Translations under genes and position numbers: made by a program
The notes under the pieces: generated by a model
Told to the model about the DNA's origin: nothing
Seen by the model: only the letters and a program-made list of their open reading frames with translations
Database searches by the model: none
Shown here: positions 8,617-34,529 of the stretch, piece after piece
How positions within the stretch are numbered: position 1 is the stretch's first letter
How the letters are laid out: each line of letters opens with the position of its first letter
From: Lishizhenia tianjinensis
GTDB lineage: Bacteria; Bacteroidota; Bacteroidia; Flavobacteriales_D; Crocinitomicaceae
Assembly (NCBI GenBank): GCA_945863425.1
Contig: CAMBBW010000007.1
Location: forward strand, 1-34,529
Reading direction: 5' to 3'
DNA length: 34,529 nucleotides

Positions 8617-11352
8617 ATGAAAACATTTTATTCATTTATAGTACTATTTTTCTGGATTTTAACAGTTAACTTCTCTAGTGCTCAACCCGTTAATTTGTGT
8701 CTGGGTGCTGATGCCACAATCTGTGCTGGACAAGCTGTTACAATTACGAACTGCAATTCTGGTAACAATGCAAATAATGCAGCTGGTATTTATCTAAATG
8801 CCCCATCAAGTGTTAGCTTAACGGATGATGTTTGGTCGGGGGTAGTTAATGTTGGATTTACATTTAACTTTTATGGCCAAAACTATACCCAATGTGTTAT
8901 TGGTTCAAATGGTCTAATTTCATTTAATTCAACTCAAGCGAACCAATATTGTCCCTGGTCCTTAACAGGTGGGCCACTTCCGAACGCCGTTTTAACTGGT
9001 GCAAGAAATTCAATTATGCTCACTTATCAGGATATTAACCCAAGTTTAGGCGGACAAATTCAATACCAAACATTGGGTACTGCTCCGAATAGAAAGTTCG
9101 TGGTGTTATATAAAGACATTTACATGTTTAGTTGTACTTCACAATGTAATTATATGGCAATTGTTTTATACGAAACGACTAATGTTTTTGAGCTGCATAT
9201 TGGAAATAAACCACTGTGTAATTCATGGAACAGCGGGTTAGCAATCCAAGGATCAGAAAATAATCCGATGACGGTTGCACACACAGTTCCAGGGAGAAAT
9301 AATGCAGTATGGTCAGCCAATCAAGATGGTAGAAGATTTACGCCAACAAGCGCTTCAAACACGAACAGTTACACTATTAATCAAATTCCATATGTTATGG
9401 TTAATAGTCCTGGTAGTAATTTTGTCTGGCAAGCAGTAAATGCAACTGGAACAGTTTTAGCGACCTTTCCTTACAATAACGGTGTTCTCAATTTACCTTC
9501 AACAAATCCAAATTATGCCATACCAGCAGGAACATCTGGATACTTCTTATCTGGTGCAGCATGTGGAACAAGTGTTGGTTCTATTACAAGCGACACTACA
9601 TGGTTAACCGTTGCAAATCCAGTATTAACTGGAACTTCCACTCCCGATATTTGTTCACAATCTTTAGGATCAGTTACAGCAGTCCCTGGAGCATCATCTC
9701 CACCTCCTTATACGTTTAGTTGGCCTCTTTTAGGATCATCTAGTCAAACAGTTAATAATGTTGCTGCAGGAACTTATACAGTCTTTATGACTGATGGAAA
9801 TGGTTGTACCGCCAATGGTTCAGTAGTTGTTGGTGACACACCCGCTAGTTTCACAGGGATAACCACTCAAGTTAGTTGTCCTGGCGGATCAGACGGAACA
9901 GCAACAGCAACCATGGTGCCTTCATTAGGAACGGTAACATATTTATGGAGTGATGGACAGACAAGCCAAACAGCAATAGGATTATCTGCTGGGAATTATA
10001 CTTGTACTGTAACATCAAGTATTGGATGTTCGGGTACGGTAAATGTTACGGTAACAGAAATTCCACCAATGATTCTAAGCATAACTAATCAGGTAGACGT
10101 TACTTGTAATTCTGGATCAGATGGTATTGCCCTAATCAATGTAGTTCAAGGAACAGCACCATATACCTATAACTGGGACAATTCATCTTCAACTAGTAAT
10201 ACGGCAACCGATTTAAATGCTAATATTCATACCGTTACTGTAACAGATGCAAACAATTGTATACAAACTATACAAGTTACAATTGGCGAACCTGCACCTC
10301 TTTCAATTGATTTCATCACTCCTGACTCCATGATTTGCCCTAGTACTATTATTAATTTAATAGCAATAGGTTCTGGCGGTTCTTCTCCGTATACCTATAC
10401 TTGGACTGAAAACGGAACAACATTAAATACTGGAAGCAATTTTTCTGTTGAACCAAACGCATCTAACACCCAATATTGCGTTACCCTTTCGGAACAATGC
10501 GGATCACCTACAACTCAAGAATGTGTTGTAATAACTTTTCCAACTCCAATTATACCAAGTGTAGTTCCTGACAAACCAAAAGACTGTATTCCTGGAGAAT
10601 TTACTTTTACAAACACATCTTCGAATGCGGGAGCTGTTTCTTTTACCCAATATGCTTTTTCAAGTGGAGATGTATATAATCTAATTGGAACTGAAAATCT
10701 AACCGCTACTTTTCCAAACGTTGGAGTTTATGATGTTCAAATGACGGTTACATCAAACTATGGGTGTGTTTATACAACTACTTTGGATGATATTATTGAG
10801 GTAACTCCTATTCCGACAGCAGATTTCACTGTTTCAAAAAATCCAGCGACATGGTTCGAAACTGCGATTCAAACATCCGATATATCTTTAGGTAACATTA
10901 CAGTATGGAACTGGGCAAGTCCAGGAGCAGTATCGATTGCTTCGGGTGGCTCTAGTGCTTTGATTACATATCCTGAAGGACAAGTTGGAACTTACCCTAT
11001 AACTCTAACAGTAACAACGGGAGAAGGATGTTCGGATTCTATAACTTTAGAAATTGAAATCGTTCCAGATATTATTATGTACGTTCCAAATTCATTTACT
11101 CCTGATGATGACGAACATAATCAAAACTGGTCCATTCAAATTGATGGAATTGACTTTGAGAATTTTGAACTTGTCCTATACAATCGATGGGGCGAAATGA
11201 TATGGGAATCTCATGATGCTAAAGGAGTTTGGGATGGAACTTATGGTGGAAGAACAGTTTCAAATGGTACTTATATTTGGAAATTATCTTTCAAAGAAAA
11301 GGATAATGATGGACGTAAGTTTTATACAGGATTTGTTAATGTAATTAGATAA
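8617..11352 (+). CDS. Secreted T9SS type-B sorting protein with SprB-like repeats, PKD-like region and gliding-motility C-terminal (CHU_C) domain
   Basis: 911 aa; signal peptide MKTFYSFIVLFFWILTVNFSSAQ; C-terminus MYVPNSFTPDDDEHNQNW...FELVLYNRWGEMIWESHDAKGVWDGTYGGRTVSNGTYIWKLSFKEKDNDGRKFYTGFVNVIR. Confidence 0.92.
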   Translation: MKTFYSFIVLFFWILTVNFSSAQPVNLCLGADATICAGQAVTITNCNSGNNANNAAGIYLNAPSSVSLTDDVWSGVVNVGFTFNFYGQNYTQCVIGSNGLISFNSTQANQYCPWSLTGGPLPNAVLTGARNSIMLTYQDINPSLGGQIQYQTLGTAPNRKFVVLYKDIYMFSCTSQCNYMAIVLYETTNVFELHIGNKPLCNSWNSGLAIQGSENNPMTVAHTVPGRNNAVWSANQDGRRFTPTSASNTNSYTINQIPYVMVNSPGSNFVWQAVNATGTVLATFPYNNGVLNLPSTNPNYAIPAGTSGYFLSGAACGTSVGSITSDTTWLTVANPVLTGTSTPDICSQSLGSVTAVPGASSPPPYTFSWPLLGSSSQTVNNVAAGTYTVFMTDGNGCTANGSVVVGDTPASFTGITTQVSCPGGSDGTATATMVPSLGTVTYLWSDGQTSQTAIGLSAGNYTCTVTSSIGCSGTVNVTVTEIPPMILSITNQVDVTCNSGSDGIALINVVQGTAPYTYNWDNSSSTSNTATDLNANIHTVTVTDANNCIQTIQVTIGEPAPLSIDFITPDSMICPSTIINLIAIGSGGSSPYTYTWTENGTTLNTGSNFSVEPNASNTQYCVTLSEQCGSPTTQECVVITFPTPIIPSVVPDKPKDCIPGEFTFTNTSSNAGAVSFTQYAFSSGDVYNLIGTENLTATFPNVGVYDVQMTVTSNYGCVYTTTLDDIIEVTPIPTADFTVSKNPATWFETAIQTSDISLGNITVWNWASPGAVSIASGGSSALITYPEGQVGTYPITLTVTTGEGCSDSITLEIEIVPDIIMYVPNSFTPDDDEHNQNWSIQIDGIDFENFELVLYNRWGEMIWESHDAKGVWDGTYGGRTVSNGTYIWKLSFKEKDNDGRKFYTGFVNVIR
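9625..10300 (+). repeat. Three divergent SprB-like protein repeats within the 8617 CDS (approximate bounds)
   Basis: PYTFSWPLLGSSSQTVNNVAAGTYTVFMTDGNGCTANGSVVVGD / VTYLWSDGQTSQTAIGLSAGNYTCTVTSSIGCSGTVNVTVTE / PYTYNWDNSSSTSNTATDLNANIHTVTVTDANNCIQTIQVTIGE. Confidence 0.8.
11077..11349 (+). other. CHU_C / gliding motility-associated C-terminal sorting domain (type B T9SS signal)
   Basis: Starts at MYVPNSFTP; contains YNRWGEMIWES, WDGTYGGRTVSNGTYIW. Confidence 0.9.
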
Positions 11353-26278: not shown

Positions 26279-29200
26279 ATGAAACAGTTTTTCATTTTTT
26301 TCTTCCTATTCAAGTACGTTGTTATATCGGCGCAGTCATTTCCATCTGACAAACAAAAATTCATTAAACATCTTAATGACCTTTATGCTGATAATGAATC
26401 AGATAAAGTAAAAAAATTTCCAGATGATTTGTTGAAGGACAATCTCTTAAAAAATGGAAAAATTGACGATGCAACTTTTACGCAAATTGTCAACACCTGC
26501 AACTCTATGCAAGAAAACGCATTGAAATCATATCCAGATATCTTTAATTATTTGTATTCATACAACCATTTATTATCTAAAGAAACAAGTTCTGACCAGT
26601 TGGAGAATTGGCATGATGTAATCGATCAATTAATATCAACTAAGAATAAGACAACTGATGACTTTCTGAAATTTTCTCTTCAGTTTTTTTTATACGGTAA
26701 ATTATCCGACGCTGCCAATTCAAAATGGTTTTATACGAATGGGGATTTTTCCTTCGAAATAGGTACATCTGTCAATGTTCGGTTGGAAAACGGGAATCTA
26801 CGATGCTTACTTTCAGAAAAATCATCCGGTTCAAATGCAACAGACAGTATTGTAATTCATGAGACAAATGGCAACTTCAACTTATCAACGAAAAAATGGG
26901 TAGGTTCAGGTGGTAATATAAATTGGACGAAAACAGGTGTTGATCAAAAGAAAATGTTTGCTACCCTCAATAGTCTCTATACAATCAATACAAAAGGATC
27001 CGAAATTAAATTAGATTCTGTTCAATTAACGGCTCCTTACTTCCAGAATCCGGTATTTGGTACAATTGAGGACCGAACTTCGACGTATTTAAGAGATGTT
27101 GATCGAATCTACCCTCGTTTTTATTCTTATACCAAAGAAGAAAAGGTTTTAAATATAATGGATGGAATTGATTATTTGGGTGGTTTTTTAATTGAGGGAG
27201 AAAAACTCATTGGGAAAGGAGACAATGAACATCCCGCTCAAGTTATTATTAAAAAAAATAAAAGCCCATTCATCATAGCAACAGCTGATGTTTTTCAATT
27301 TACAATTAATTCCATACAATCCAATCAAACAGCTATTAAGATTTTAATTGGTAAGGATTCCATTTCACATAATTCGATTAATTTCAATTATAATAATTCA
27401 ACCAAGGAAATTGAAATTGCGCGACCTTTAAAGGGAAGGGGTTTTGCTCCGTTTGAAGATTCATATCATCAACTGGATATTCATGCTCAACGAATTTTAT
27501 ACGCAATTGGAACAAATGAAATTCGATTCACCTATGATTATGGAGCACCAATTGATTTGCGTAATGCAAAATTTGAATCGAAAGATTATTTTGATGAAAA
27601 ACTTTTTGAATCATTTAAAGGTATGGATGCGGTAAACCCATTAACACTAGCCGCAAAATATGCTATTGATAAAAACACGAAAGTATTTACGGAGGGAGAA
27701 TTTGCAAGTGGAATCAATAAATTCATTACTCAATGCAAACCATTAATACTCGAAATGGCTGTACATGGATTTATTCAATATAATGTGGAAAAGAAATCAG
27801 TCGAAGTAAATGATAAACTTTTTAAATACGTCGACTATAAATCTGGTAATCGAGATTTTGACAACCTAAGTTTCACCAGTGATTTGTCTCCACAATTAAA
27901 AAACTTTTCTGAACAGGAACTCGAAGCAATCAAATCAGATTCAAATCTTCTATCTGATTATTCTCAAATGCTATCCAATGATAATCGAAGAAAAAAGTTG
28001 CCTTTTTATGCCATTTTAGACCTAAATACATCTCACTTAATAATTGACGGAGTTGATTATTTGACACTAGCGGTAAACCAACCAACTTATGTTTCACCGA
28101 CAGATTTGCAATTAACAATCAAAGCTAATCGCAATTTTTCTTTCAATGGAATTATTCATTCAGGAAAAATGGCTATCACGTCTGAAATTGGTGAATACAA
28201 TTATCTAACAAATTCGTTTCAGATTAAGAACGCAAAAAAAGTTTCCTTAACCGTTAGACCATTTACAGAAAAGGAAAAAAATGGTGAGCCGATACAAATG
28301 ATTTCGGAGTTATCTAATGTAACCGGAATACTTAGCGTTGATGACGTAAACAATAGATCAGGTAAGAACAAGCTGTTCTCGGATTATCCCAAATTATCAC
28401 TCAGCAAACCTTGTACTATATTCTACAACAATCTATTAAATGGGGCATATGATTCCACTCGATTTTATGTAAGCATTGATCCATTTGAATTAGACAGTTT
28501 GGATAACTTTAATGAAAAATCACTTGTATTAAAAGGTGAGTTAACATCAGCTGGAATTTTCCCAAAAATAAAAGAGAACATTCGAATAATGGATGATTAT
28601 TCGTTTGGTTTTTCCACACAAGCTCCTGAAAATGGCTACAAATTTTACGAAGGGAATACAAATTACAAAAATAAAATCATTCTTTCCGGAAATGGACTAC
28701 AAGGCGCAGGAACTATCCAATTCCTTCAAGCATCTGCGGAATCAAATCGCTTAACTTTTTTACCCGACTCAACAATAGGAATTGCAAAATTCATAAACAA
28801 TCCATCAGAAGAAAAAATGCAGCTTCCAGACGTATACAATGACCGTGCTTTTATTTGTTACTTACCCAAAATTAGAATACTCAAAGCATCTTCAACAAAT
28901 GAAAATCCAATGCGGTTATTCAACAATGAAGCTCATTTAGGGGGTACATTAGTTTTTTCAGAGGCTGGTATGACTGGGAATGGAGAAATGGGATTTAAAA
29001 CAGCTTCAATGAATTCCAAATATTATCGCTTTAATAGATGGGAAATATTAGCAGATACCTCGAGTTTCTTTCTAAAAAACAGTTTCAGAGAACAAGGAGA
29101 AGACCCATTAGCATTAAAAGCGGATGGCGTAACTGCAAAGATTAGTTTTAAAACAAGAAAAGGAGAGTTTAATGCATCCAAAACGAAACAAATTGAATTT

Positions 29201-30886
29201 CCGGCTAATTTATACTATTGCAAAATGGATAAGTTCTTTTGGTATATGGATGAATTAAGTATTGATTTGGAAAGAAACAATGATGGCCTTACCTCATTTG
29301 AAGCAGACGCTTCTGGAGTGGTCTCCAATTTTTTTTGTTATGATTCCAAATTTAAAAATGATCGTAAAATAGAATTTAAAGCGTTAAACGCCCGATACGA
29401 TTTGAAGTCACAACATATTTATTGTGAAAAGGTGGTCAATCTGCCAATCGGTGATGTATTGATACACCCAGATAGTAACCGATTAGTTATTGAAAAGAAA
29501 GCTGTGATTCGACCGCTAATTAACGCTCAAATTCAAACGCTCAATAAAATGCATGTATTTGAACAATGCGCTGTAGAAGTAACAGATAAATCTTACTACA
29601 AAGCCAAGGGTAAATACAAATATATTGATATTGACAAGGAGGTTTCATTTATTCAAATGGACCAGATTTTATGTAGTGATTTTAAAACAAAAGCAACGGG
29701 GATCATTAAAGAAAATCGTGGATTTAAACTTTCGAAACAATTTGAATATTTTGGAAACATCGAGGTTTTGACAAACGAAGACAGTATTTATTGCGATGGT
29801 AGTACCCGGATTGTTCATGATTGCAAATACAAAAAATCATGGATGGCCTTTAAAGACAAAATCCAACCATTAAACATTCAAATTCCGGTAGGTAAGGAAA
29901 TTAAAAACACAGATGATCAACCTCTCGGATTAGGGATTTATTGGGATAAAGAGAATAAGAATCTATACACTACTTTTCTGTCACTCACGAATATGCCCGA
30001 GGACGAATTAGTCTATTCATCAACCGGTTATTTGCAATTTAACGCTGTGAAGAATGAATTCCAAATATCAACGAAACAACAACTCAAGCAACGGAATGAG
30101 AATATCTCAATTGATGCCTTAACAACTGATAATTATTTGTCTTTGGATTTAGAAAATAACAACTGTAATATTTACGGTGAAGGAGAAATTAAACTTGGAA
30201 TACCTGTTGGTGAAACATCAATTGAATCATTTGGCACTGTCCGTTATGATGCTACTGGGACTAAAAAAATCAGTTTGTCAGTCACATCAAAATTCTCATT
30301 TCCCGTAAGTCAGGAACTAATGGTCGATTTAGCAAAAAAAATGAAAGTGTCAGAGGAATTGATAGCGACAAAAGAATCTGACTTGAATAAAACAAGTTTT
30401 GATAGAGCTATGAAACATTGGAATAATCAAAAAGATTACGAAAAAATAAGAGAAGCTGTTTTAAATGAAACCACTCCTAAATTCCCCAAAAACATGGAGC
30501 AAACCATTATATTAAGTGGTTTAGAATTGGTTAGTTATGTTAAAAATGATAGACGTGGATTAAAATCAAATACAACAAACGCAATTATTATTGGTATGTA
30601 TGATAGACCTGTTTTTAAAACTGTACCATGCGAGTTCTATCTCGATTTGTCCGTAGAGGAGTTAAATAAATATAACTTTGGACTTAATTTTATCGTAGGT
30701 AACTCAGAATATTTTTTTGATTTAAAAACTATTAAAACATCAAGAGATTTAAAGATCCTAAGCACCGATGAGCAATTTAATAAAACTCTATTTGAAATTA
30801 AACCAAAAATGAAAAAAATCAAAAGCTTCAGCTATGAAGGTACGGAAAACCCAGAAATCAAAGAATTATTTAATGAAATTTTTTAA
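26279..30886 (+). CDS. Large exported protein of unknown function (1535 aa)
   Basis: Signal peptide MKQFFIFFFLFKYVVISAQS; one uninterrupted ORF; no motif I recognise; no CHU_C or T9SS type A tail at the C-terminus (ends ...NPEIKELFNEIF). Confidence 0.9.
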   Translation: MKQFFIFFFLFKYVVISAQSFPSDKQKFIKHLNDLYADNESDKVKKFPDDLLKDNLLKNGKIDDATFTQIVNTCNSMQENALKSYPDIFNYLYSYNHLLSKETSSDQLENWHDVIDQLISTKNKTTDDFLKFSLQFFLYGKLSDAANSKWFYTNGDFSFEIGTSVNVRLENGNLRCLLSEKSSGSNATDSIVIHETNGNFNLSTKKWVGSGGNINWTKTGVDQKKMFATLNSLYTINTKGSEIKLDSVQLTAPYFQNPVFGTIEDRTSTYLRDVDRIYPRFYSYTKEEKVLNIMDGIDYLGGFLIEGEKLIGKGDNEHPAQVIIKKNKSPFIIATADVFQFTINSIQSNQTAIKILIGKDSISHNSINFNYNNSTKEIEIARPLKGRGFAPFEDSYHQLDIHAQRILYAIGTNEIRFTYDYGAPIDLRNAKFESKDYFDEKLFESFKGMDAVNPLTLAAKYAIDKNTKVFTEGEFASGINKFITQCKPLILEMAVHGFIQYNVEKKSVEVNDKLFKYVDYKSGNRDFDNLSFTSDLSPQLKNFSEQELEAIKSDSNLLSDYSQMLSNDNRRKKLPFYAILDLNTSHLIIDGVDYLTLAVNQPTYVSPTDLQLTIKANRNFSFNGIIHSGKMAITSEIGEYNYLTNSFQIKNAKKVSLTVRPFTEKEKNGEPIQMISELSNVTGILSVDDVNNRSGKNKLFSDYPKLSLSKPCTIFYNNLLNGAYDSTRFYVSIDPFELDSLDNFNEKSLVLKGELTSAGIFPKIKENIRIMDDYSFGFSTQAPENGYKFYEGNTNYKNKIILSGNGLQGAGTIQFLQASAESNRLTFLPDSTIGIAKFINNPSEEKMQLPDVYNDRAFICYLPKIRILKASSTNENPMRLFNNEAHLGGTLVFSEAGMTGNGEMGFKTASMNSKYYRFNRWEILADTSSFFLKNSFREQGEDPLALKADGVTAKISFKTRKGEFNASKTKQIEFPANLYYCKMDKFFWYMDELSIDLERNNDGLTSFEADASGVVSNFFCYDSKFKNDRKIEFKALNARYDLKSQHIYCEKVVNLPIGDVLIHPDSNRLVIEKKAVIRPLINAQIQTLNKMHVFEQCAVEVTDKSYYKAKGKYKYIDIDKEVSFIQMDQILCSDFKTKATGIIKENRGFKLSKQFEYFGNIEVLTNEDSIYCDGSTRIVHDCKYKKSWMAFKDKIQPLNIQIPVGKEIKNTDDQPLGLGIYWDKENKNLYTTFLSLTNMPEDELVYSSTGYLQFNAVKNEFQISTKQQLKQRNENISIDALTTDNYLSLDLENNNCNIYGEGEIKLGIPVGETSIESFGTVRYDATGTKKISLSVTSKFSFPVSQELMVDLAKKMKVSEELIATKESDLNKTSFDRAMKHWNNQKDYEKIREAVLNETTPKFPKNMEQTIILSGLELVSYVKNDRRGLKSNTTNAIIIGMYDRPVFKTVPCEFYLDLSVEELNKYNFGLNFIVGNSEYFFDLKTIKTSRDLKILSTDEQFNKTLFEIKPKMKKIKSFSYEGTENPEIKELFNEIF

Positions 30887-30889
30887 TCC

Positions 30890-31525
30890 ATGATAGAGTA
30901 TGTTTTAGTGCTCTCTGCGGTAATTATTGGTTACCTTTTTGGATCAATACCAACAGCCGTATGGATTGGGCGCTTTTATTTTAAGCTAGATGTTAGAGAA
31001 CATGGCAGTAAAAATGCGGGTGCTACGAATACTTTTCGCGTATTGGGAAAAAAACCTGGAATAATTGTACTTTTCATTGACATACTAAAAGGCGTAATTG
31101 CCTCGATGTTTCCAATTATTTTTACTGAGTTTTATGAACTGAGCTATACCTTTTTGATTACATTGCGACTCATCTCTTCCATTTTTTCCATGATTGGCCA
31201 TGTTTTACCTGTCTTTGCAAAATTTAAAGGGGGTAAAGGTGTGGCTACATCCCTTGGAGTATTAATAGGGCTTCAACCATTTGCAGCATTGATTTGCTTT
31301 TCTGTATTTCTATGTGTGTTCATTGCGTCAAAATATGTTTCTCTTGGTGCAATATCCTCCGCTATTACCTATCCATTTATTGTTTATTTTGTCGATCCAA
31401 CAGTTCTTCCGCATGAATTGATTTTTACTGTTATTCTCAGTTCTGCCGTTGTTTTTACGCACCGAAAGAATATTTTCCGTTTACTCAATGGAAAGGAAAA
31501 TAAAATGAACCTTTTTAAACGATAA
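30890..31525 (+). CDS. plsY: Glycerol-3-phosphate acyltransferase PlsY
   Basis: 211 aa; GYLFGSIPTAVWIGRFYFKLDVREHGSKNAGATNTFRVLGKKPGIIVLFIDILKGV, IGHVLPVFAKFKGGKGVATSLGVL. Confidence 0.97.
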   Translation: MIEYVLVLSAVIIGYLFGSIPTAVWIGRFYFKLDVREHGSKNAGATNTFRVLGKKPGIIVLFIDILKGVIASMFPIIFTEFYELSYTFLITLRLISSIFSMIGHVLPVFAKFKGGKGVATSLGVLIGLQPFAALICFSVFLCVFIASKYVSLGAISSAITYPFIVYFVDPTVLPHELIFTVILSSAVVFTHRKNIFRLLNGKENKMNLFKR

Positions 31526-31546
31526 TTGTATATCACTTTTTGTATT

Positions 31547-34529
31547 TTGAAGAAATTTCTAATTTATAGTGTCTGTTTTGTTTTGACCTGCCAAACTTTG
31601 GTTATTGGTCAATCAAAAAATGACCTGAAAAAATTAAATAGCCTTTTTTGGAATGGAAATTATCACGAAGTAATTCTCAATTACGCCGAACTTTATAATC
31701 AAGATCGAAATAATCAGGATATCAATTTTAAATATGGAACTTGCTTACTATTTGAATCTGATAGCACAACAAAACTTGAAAAAGCAATTGGACACCTCAG
31801 ATTTGCATGTGCAAAGGAGGGCTCACTTGCCGAATATCATTTTTTTCTGGGTAGAGCACTTCATTGTTTTGGTGATTTCGAAGGCGCACTAAATCAATTT
31901 AAATCGTACAAAATAAAAAAGAATAAAACTAGCGTTGAATTGAACGCCGAATTATACATTAACTATTGTAATGAGTCCTTAAAATTAAATGAACTTGCTC
32001 AAGCATCATTCAGTAAAACAGGATCAATCGTGCCCACCCAATTGGGTAAATCCTATTCGTTGAATCAAATCGAATTAACTGGTAAATTTTTTAATAGTAT
32101 CGAATTCCAGACCAAATTGGACAAAAAAAAGAATTACGAACCCTTAATTTTCAAATCTGAAATTGCTTCAATGCGTTTTTTTGCGAGCTATGGTGAAAAA
32201 GATGAAGAAAACAAAGATATTTACCTAGTAACTGGAAGTTTTGACAATAAGAAAATTGAGCGATTATCCTCAAAAATCAACACAAACTTTGATGAAGATT
32301 TTCCAATATTTGACGAAAAAACAAATTACCTTTATTTTTCATCATTAGGTCACAATAGTTCTGGTGGGTATGATATTTTTCGTTCAAAATACGATTCGTT
32401 ATCTCAAGATTTCGAAACTCCCGAAAACCTTGGCAAAGGAATTTCCACGCCTTTTGACGATTATCTTTTTATGTATAACCCCTCAAATAATCGGGCATTT
32501 ATTAGTTCAACTAAACTTAGTCTAAAAGGAGGAATTTCCATTTTTCAGGGAGCAGTGAATTTTATAGACAATTCACTCCAATTGCCAGTAACCGTTAATA
32601 TTCAATTCAAGAATGAGGATAATAACTCCATGAAATTAAAGAGTATTCAAGTTAAAAACCTCGCGAATGACTCAATCGTTCAAATCCTAAACCCTTTAGC
32701 ATCGAATAATTTCGAAATGAAATTAGGTCCTGGATCTTACAGTTACATCATTCAATTATCAGGCAGCCAGGATGTTTTTGAAGCAAAGATTGACATACCC
32801 GACAAGCAACAAACAATAATTCAAACCATTGAGTATTCTCTAAATGATCGTAACACGGAAATAGTGGCAATTACCAATATCATAGAGAATGTCAATAGTG
32901 AAATAGTATTAGCTCAAAACAAAACTAAGGAGGAAAAATCGAACATCCAATCCCGTAACCTTCTTGATGAGCAAGATGAAAAGGAAGTCCTTGAGAAACT
33001 AGGAATGGAAAGTTATAGTAAAATTGAAGTTATTGATGCTGCTTCGGATAAAATAATAGAAATCGAATTAGCTCAAAAAGATAATATAGAGTTGCTAAAT
33101 AAGTTAAATGCTGCGATTGTTCAAAACAAGACCTATTATCAGCAACTCCAACATGAAATTGACTCCATTAGCCCAAGTCTAAGCGATTTCACAAACATTG
33201 AAAAATTAGAAAAACTGAAGTGTGTTGAAAATATTTCCGCCGAACAAGCTGAGGTAGCGAAGCAAACTATTTGGCTTCAACAACTAAATGATTCCATCCG
33301 AAATGTTCAAAAATTGAATGAAACTAACTACAAGTTGGTACAAAAGTTAGGGGAAGAAATTATGGAGTTAACGCAACAAGAAAATCAAACTGAAGCGTAT
33401 CAAAAAATCATTAAGAATCATCAACAATTTTTGGCGCTAACCACTGAAACAGCCTTCGAAACAATTTATAATGACTTACTGAACATTGAATTGGAATTAT
33501 CGAGAATTGATAAAAAAGTTATTGGTTTAATGAATGAAAAAACAAAATCTCAAGATGAACTTACCGAAATAGAAATTAAACTGAGGAACTCAACAAATAA
33601 GGAAAGGACAGAATTGGAAAAATCAAAAATGAATCTCGAACAAAAACTCGCTTCAAATGAAAAACAAATTACTCGATTAAAATTAGATAAAAATGAATTG
33701 AATATTGTAAAAACAGATAAAGAATTAAAGAGAAACATCCTAGCTGCTGTAATAAAGGAAGATTATGAAGGACCAACAAGTTATGAAGATGCCGTTAAGA
33801 ACTATTTTGATTCAAAATCGAATCAAGATTCAAAATCTGAGGAAATCACACAACAAATAAAGCAAATTGAGGAGAATTTAACGCCCGAGGAAATCGATTA
33901 CATTAAAGCATCTAAACTGTACGTAACAAAGATAGAGTCAATCTCCAATTCAAATATTGATCAAACACAAAAGATCGCTATAGAACAAGAATACTCAAAT
34001 ACCCTACAGCAACTTATTGAAAAAGGGGAAGATTCAGCTTCATTCATTAGTTTTTTAAATGAAAAACTTCAGGAAAGCACTTCCAAATTACAGGCATTGA
34101 AGTTGGATGAAAAACAGCAAGAAGATAACAATCAAATTGTAAAATCTGATGGTAAACAAGTCAATCCGACTGAGGAGAATGATAAAGAGAACGTTACTGA
34201 AAATCAAATTGCTAAATCTGATGGTAAACAAGCCAATCCAACTGAGGAGATTGATAAAGAAAGCATTACTGAAAATCAAATTGCAAAATCTGATGGTAAA
34301 CAAGCCAATCCAACTGAGGAGATTGATAAAGAGAACATTACTGAAAATCAAATTGCTAAATCTGATGGTAAACAAGCCATTCCGACTGAGGTAATTGAAA
34401 AAGAGAACATTACTGAAAATCAAATTGCAAAATCTGATGGCAAACAAGCCAATCCAACTGAGGAGAATGATAAAGAGAACGTTACTGAAAATCAAATTGC
34501 AAAATCTGATGGTAAACAAGCCAATCTGA
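31547..34529 (+). CDS. Exported TPR-like/PD40-like protein with coiled-coil region and C-terminal 24-aa tandem repeats (runs off window end)
   Basis: TTG start: (M)KKFLIYSVCFVLTCQTLVIGQSKNDLKKLNSLFWNGNYHEVILNYAELYNQD...; NTNFDEDFPIFDEKTNYLYFSSLGHNSSGGYDIFRSKYDS is PD40-like; my manual read found the frame open from 31547 to 34529. Absent from the supplied track, presumably because of non-ATG start and no stop. Confidence 0.85.
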   Translation, partial: MKKFLIYSVCFVLTCQTLVIGQSKNDLKKLNSLFWNGNYHEVILNYAELYNQDRNNQDINFKYGTCLLFESDSTTKLEKAIGHLRFACAKEGSLAEYHFFLGRALHCFGDFEGALNQFKSYKIKKNKTSVELNAELYINYCNESLKLNELAQASFSKTGSIVPTQLGKSYSLNQIELTGKFFNSIEFQTKLDKKKNYEPLIFKSEIASMRFFASYGEKDEENKDIYLVTGSFDNKKIERLSSKINTNFDEDFPIFDEKTNYLYFSSLGHNSSGGYDIFRSKYDSLSQDFETPENLGKGISTPFDDYLFMYNPSNNRAFISSTKLSLKGGISIFQGAVNFIDNSLQLPVTVNIQFKNEDNNSMKLKSIQVKNLANDSIVQILNPLASNNFEMKLGPGSYSYIIQLSGSQDVFEAKIDIPDKQQTIIQTIEYSLNDRNTEIVAITNIIENVNSEIVLAQNKTKEEKSNIQSRNLLDEQDEKEVLEKLGMESYSKIEVIDAASDKIIEIELAQKDNIELLNKLNAAIVQNKTYYQQLQHEIDSISPSLSDFTNIEKLEKLKCVENISAEQAEVAKQTIWLQQLNDSIRNVQKLNETNYKLVQKLGEEIMELTQQENQTEAYQKIIKNHQQFLALTTETAFETIYNDLLNIELELSRIDKKVIGLMNEKTKSQDELTEIEIKLRNSTNKERTELEKSKMNLEQKLASNEKQITRLKLDKNELNIVKTDKELKRNILAAVIKEDYEGPTSYEDAVKNYFDSKSNQDSKSEEITQQIKQIEENLTPEEIDYIKASKLYVTKIESISNSNIDQTQKIAIEQEYSNTLQQLIEKGEDSASFISFLNEKLQESTSKLQALKLDEKQQEDNNQIVKSDGKQVNPTEENDKENVTENQIAKSDGKQANPTEEIDKESITENQIAKSDGKQANPTEEIDKENITENQIAKSDGKQAIPTEVIEKENITENQIAKSDGKQANPTEENDKENVTENQIAKSDGKQANL
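34142..34529 (+). repeat. 72-bp in-frame tandem repeat (24 aa, consensus KSDGKQANPTEEIDKENITENQIA), 5 full units plus partial sixth
   Basis: AAATCTGATGG(T/C)AAACAAG recurs at 34142, 34214, 34286, 34358, 34430, 34502, exactly 72 bp apart. Confidence 0.97.

Follow-up and report, generated by a model that had tools for sequence, protein, structure and literature searches.

Locus and protein architecture

The window (the whole stretch of DNA analysed, 34,529 bp) is the entire contig C7. The MAG is fragmented, with 239 contigs for 2.56 Mb at 85.8% completeness, and C7 stops within a tandem array in a large gene directly downstream of plsY. The features at this end of the window are as follows:

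30890..31525 (+): plsY (glycerol-3-phosphate acyltransferase), the syntenic upstream neighbour; Pfam PF02660, E 2.7e-54
31526..34529 (+): N-terminal portion of the repeat protein; the ORF begins with TTG and runs off the contig, and its other half is on contig C42
31526..31612 (+): signal-peptide-like segment; KK, a hydrophobic stretch and a GQ/AQ end across 30 orthologs (alignment A1), judged by eye
31616..31984 (+): TPR domain; the A1 profile matches TPR proteins in PDB, TPR_2 in 21 of 30 members, helices in the model
31988..32560 (+): PD40/beta-propeller-like domain; PD40 in 8 of 30 members (best E 5.7e-10), strands in the model
32588..32836 (+): CRD/CnaB-like beta domain; CarboxypepD_reg in 1 of 30 members, strands in the model, CnaB2 among weak Foldseek matches
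32846..34129 (+): first helical (coiled-coil-like) stalk segment, from composition; equivalent regions of relatives hold ~100-aa helical repeats
34130..34529 (+): 72-bp / 24-aa tandem array; TRF score 675, truncated where the contig stops
34146..34254 (+): a stretch that recurs, unchanged, as the first 109 bp of C42, a repeat common to both contig ends

From N- to C-terminus, the protein consists of the signal-peptide-like segment, the TPR, PD40/propeller-like and CRD/CnaB-like domains, a stalk, the array, a second stalk and two SPOR domains. Its N-terminus supports the proposal of the first-pass annotation that the protein is exported, and of the downstream tails offered there, SPOR was the one found when the array was followed onto C42. 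The AlphaFold model of the head has a mean pLDDT of 86.7, with the TPR clear and the remainder weak by Foldseek, and the PD40 match in the window protein itself is weak (E 0.01). At the C-terminus, SPOR scores 23.5 bits against a Pfam gathering cut-off of 21, Pfam SPOR was matched in 17 of 18 ortholog C-termini, and the glycan-contacting Gln is invariant in both domains (Q26 and Q161; alignment A3). In SPOR domains generally, this conserved Gln of the first strand contacts the glycan (PMC6895207). The C-terminal model returned no significant Foldseek match (DedD SPOR only at E 0.29), and neither half of the protein matches any NCBIfam model.

Two further ORFs lie upstream in the window. Positions 26279-30886 (+), upstream of plsY, encode an apparently exported 1535-aa protein with no Pfam or NCBIfam match, and with 94% and 90% DNA identity in two sister genomes. 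At 8617-11352 (+), the encoded protein matches the T9SS type B sorting domain model TIGR04131 above cut-off; T9SS substrates are therefore probable in this organism.

TRF, run on the whole window, places the array at 34130-34526 with a period of 72, 5.5 copies, 91% matches, 0% indels and a score of 675, far above the scores of 63 and 53 for the window's other two tandem arrays. Unit 1 is in frame from 34142, five full units occupy 34142-34501, and a partial sixth continues to the window end, all as first described and with the 24-aa consensus correctly read. As in VNTR proteins, the tandem units are exact and in frame, with a constant period and no indels. By composition, the array is polar and charged, as had been claimed (net -13 over 132 aa, 14% hydrophobic, 79% in charged or polar classes), and may be disordered. 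An antisense ORF of 143 aa (34088-34519, -) runs through the array; it was set aside as a gene, since it is probably there only because the repeat unit has no stop codons in that frame.

Contig ends and copy number in close relatives

When the MAG was searched with the repeat, matches were found on C7 and C42 only, and a dispersed repeat or mobile element was rejected on these grounds. The minus strand of C42 carries 4.0 more units and then 684 aa until the stop, with clpS and a rhomboid gene beyond. In L091 (a MAG filed as 'Lishizhenia tianjinensis'), a single ORF on one contig contains both flanks, separated by 2.25 units, so C7 and C42 hold two halves of one gene. DNA identity to L091 is 90.2% for the N-flank (C7) and 95.3% for the C-flank (C42), with a divergence of pS 0.27 vs 0.11. 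These identities raised the suspicion that C7 and C42 come from different strains, but other loci of the same genome also span 90-96% identity to L091, leaving mis-binning without support; local recombination near the array may have occurred. Since the first 109 bp of C42 equal window positions 34146-34254, the join is more than a plain overlap, and the two ends allow different totals: at least 9 units if they lie in series, and fewer if they represent alternative strain paths.

The comparison of copy number across related genomes that had been suggested for this array could be made among close relatives. L091 has 2.25 units, the window's own genome at least 5.5 and the sister genome G029 at least 5.6, these being minimum values wherever a contig ends inside the array, and most genomes being MAGs. 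This supports the earlier suggestion of a length-variable linker on an envelope protein. In G029 (99% complete, in 50 contigs), too, a contig (L039 = C12:1-4500) breaks off in the array; neither the C-terminal half nor clpS nor the sequence past it is in the G029 bin.

Several contigs end inside the array (C7, C42, L039, L066, L073, L076 and others), as would be expected if short-read assembly had produced the repeats by chimeric joining or collapse, an artefact that the first-pass annotation had allowed for. We consider this very improbable: the 72-bp unit is common to three separately binned MAGs (the window's own, G029 and L091), units within one contig differ (the longest exact internal repeat of C7 is 47 bp), and the reading frame is intact. 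Contig breaks at these points look instead like the result of real repeats, which explain how this gene comes to be cut at MAG contig ends and one protein to appear as two partial ORFs.

Arrays at one slot across orthologs

Most fetched orthologs also have plsY immediately 5', and the arrangement plsY-gene-clpS recurs in several families of the order. Of 296 Bacteroidia genomes, 117 have a match to a profile of the double-SPOR tail, usually within an ORF of ~1,700-2,600 aa. Relatives were taken as the best 80 of 313 from a profile search of genome contigs; those named are for the most part MAGs of Crocinitomicaceae and Flavobacteriales, alongside isolates of Fluviicola, Brumimicrobium and Taishania. 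The window's gene is divergent, with 19-30% head identity outside its sister and a long stem in the tree; it was assigned as an ortholog of the other genus members by synteny and architecture. A literature search, with most subscription journals outside its coverage, found nothing on this giant protein of aquatic Bacteroidota or on repeat-slot turnover, and the protein, flanked by plsY and clpS, is apparently undescribed.

Within the genus, 16 of 24 fetched ortholog loci bear an array at the same place at the TRF threshold used, in addition to the window and C42; 4-5 own-genus orthologs are without a short array, and L161 and L078 have little or none. The array starts 423-447 aa (about 420-450) after the CRD in many orthologs and ends ~270-330 aa before the first SPOR domain in most, with some boundary estimates wrong where the profile also matched elsewhere. 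The units and their periods are entirely different from one another. Among own-genus orthologs there are units of 36 bp (NENTNKEENIAK), 39 bp (KEEAKKEPEE), 42 bp (NGQRTTEN), 75 bp (EEERLAANPV), 84 bp (NDSKLAETNSNE) and 87 bp (TTETTPVV), and periods of 141 bp, 225 bp and, as helical units, 288 bp. Clustering by DNA at one BLAST threshold sorted 31 short-unit arrays into 19 groups with no detectable similarity to one another, and arrays in the same group come from related genomes. Most are polar and acidic; a small number (L060, L170) are K/E-rich and probably helical, which makes extendedness, not one sequence, the common feature. L161 and L164 share 90% and 87% identity in their flanks but have different middles; between L057 and L159, flank identity is 92% and 88%, with different higher-order units. 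Unit replacement is visible here at short evolutionary distance.

In 431.5 kb of control sequence sampled elsewhere in the genus, arrays occur at three places, so the slot is enriched for arrays, with the control background an underestimate because MAG contigs break at arrays. One control array (L186:13064-15669) has collagen-like 99-117-bp units, and the other two lie at contig starts (L171:1-1992, 153-bp x13; L188:1-127, 24-bp x5). The same stalk holds tandem helical units of ~96-107 aa (288-321 bp) in L102, L105, L065, L117, L140, L158 and others, and these units are perhaps the ancestral form of the spacer. The median length of the non-array stalk is 737 aa in proteins with an array vs 1380 aa in those without a short-unit array (p ~1e-7, kinship ignored), as if the repeats stood in for lost helical stalk.

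Constraint on the units, proposed spacer model and known systems

All 62 TRF periods of at least 24 bp are multiples of 3, in rows that are not independent (several can stem from one array), and phase variation was rejected on this basis. Units within an array were compared by pN/pS, which is lower than 1 for 22 of 23 arrays and has a median of 0.33 vs 1.52 and 1.18 in the other frames. It is 0.36 for the window contig and 0.82 for C42, which has few units, and the frame contrast is noisy for both since frame 2 gives 0.40 and 0.22, respectively. These values bear on whether the region is a slippage-prone, tolerated linker, unconstrained and functionless, in which repeats come and go by mutation alone. 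Units that are unrelated between species and of low complexity fit such a linker, as do orthologs with little or no array (L161, L078), and any surviving in-frame array would be expected to have a period that is a multiple of 3. However, unit differences are mainly synonymous in the coding frame only, and the slot is fixed whereas arrays are rare in the control sequence, and we regard this explanation as rather unlikely.

The 'recent expansion' read earlier from the high identity of the units found no support. Synonymous differences among units (pS 0.145 in the window's own genome, 0.22 in G029) are comparable to the divergence of the gene flanks from sister genomes (pS 0.11-0.31), and against L091 the window's value falls between those of the C-flank (0.109) and the N-flank (0.271). 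Being of the same order as flank divergence, these differences indicate that the units were not freshly copied. Units differ at 5.2 of 72 positions within a genome vs 9.1 between the window's own genome and G029, a higher within-genome likeness that fits continuing turnover.

We favour, at a probability of roughly 60%, the reading that the array is part of a polar spacer, fixed in position and quickly re-seeded, in a periplasmic strap protein that connects a PorE-like head to the wall. From its domain families, the protein would be exported and its head would dock on envelope machinery; by analogy with SPOR domains elsewhere, the tail would bind denuded glycan strands of the wall. The repeats would then form an extended, soluble, non-sticky tether whose copy number sets its reach. 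Units may be gained and lost as whole codons through slippage or unequal exchange, different lineages may rebuild the array from a new local seed sequence, and selection seems to preserve the frame, the polar character and, within a lineage, the amino-acid sequence of the unit.

The spacer model explains the position, composition, frame and replaceability of the arrays, and the occurrence of unrelated arrays at one slot suggests that a spacer's physical properties may outweigh its exact sequence. A counterpoint is that the constraint on units within a lineage exceeds what a pure spacer needs, and this conservation could reflect either a constraint on composition or a co-evolving partner. If each unit were a specific binding motif, a multivalent site for a ligand or partner that co-evolves with the lineage, constraint within lineages and replacement between them would both be accounted for. 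The very different chemistries found in one slot (Asn/Thr-rich, Lys/Glu-rich, Pro-rich and 96-aa helical) argue against this, as does the lack of a known partner, and we judge it quite unlikely. Tentatively, and with much less confidence than in the spacer itself, we suggest a broader possibility: at a fixed slot in a conserved giant wall-anchoring protein, each lineage may repeatedly build an unrelated array that then comes under purifying selection on its amino acids, the physical role being selected, with lineage-specific tuning or partner co-evolution, and not an inherited sequence. The many genomes with unrelated spacers at the conserved slot provide a natural swap experiment on the length, charge and flexibility that a linker requires when sequence may vary freely, and they point to a large, widely conserved SPOR protein.

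PorE (PG1058), a T9SS lipoprotein, combines TPR, beta-propeller, CRD and OmpA_C-like domains (PMC5053529, PMC7192894). The repeat protein resembles it in the head order of TPR, propeller and CRD-like domains, the latter two weak in the window's own protein, and in having a C-terminal peptidoglycan-binding module. It differs in having two SPOR domains where PorE has OmpA, and a stalk of ~570-1900 aa with or without arrays. Membership in PorE was rejected, since Pfam finds no OmpA in the repeat protein and neither half matches NCBIfam PorE; a separate TPR-PD40-OmpA protein of the same genome (on C88) matches NCBIfam PorE below cut-off.

In FtsN, DamX, DedD and RlpA, as in the repeat protein, a wall-binding tail is set apart from the rest by a linker. 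The likeness extends to the C-terminal SPOR with its glycan-contacting Gln (PMC6895207). Compared with these proteins, the repeat protein has two SPOR domains, a head unseen there, a far longer spacer and tandem arrays. Bacterial surface and envelope proteins with intragenic tandem repeats (VNTRs) likewise have in-frame units in variable copy number; here, the unit too is replaced between related species at one slot. The variable periplasmic linkers of TolA and TonB are polar or charged extended spacers of poorly conserved sequence that bridge the periplasm, but nothing of the inner-membrane energy-transducing part of these proteins is seen in the repeat protein, which has SPOR anchors instead.
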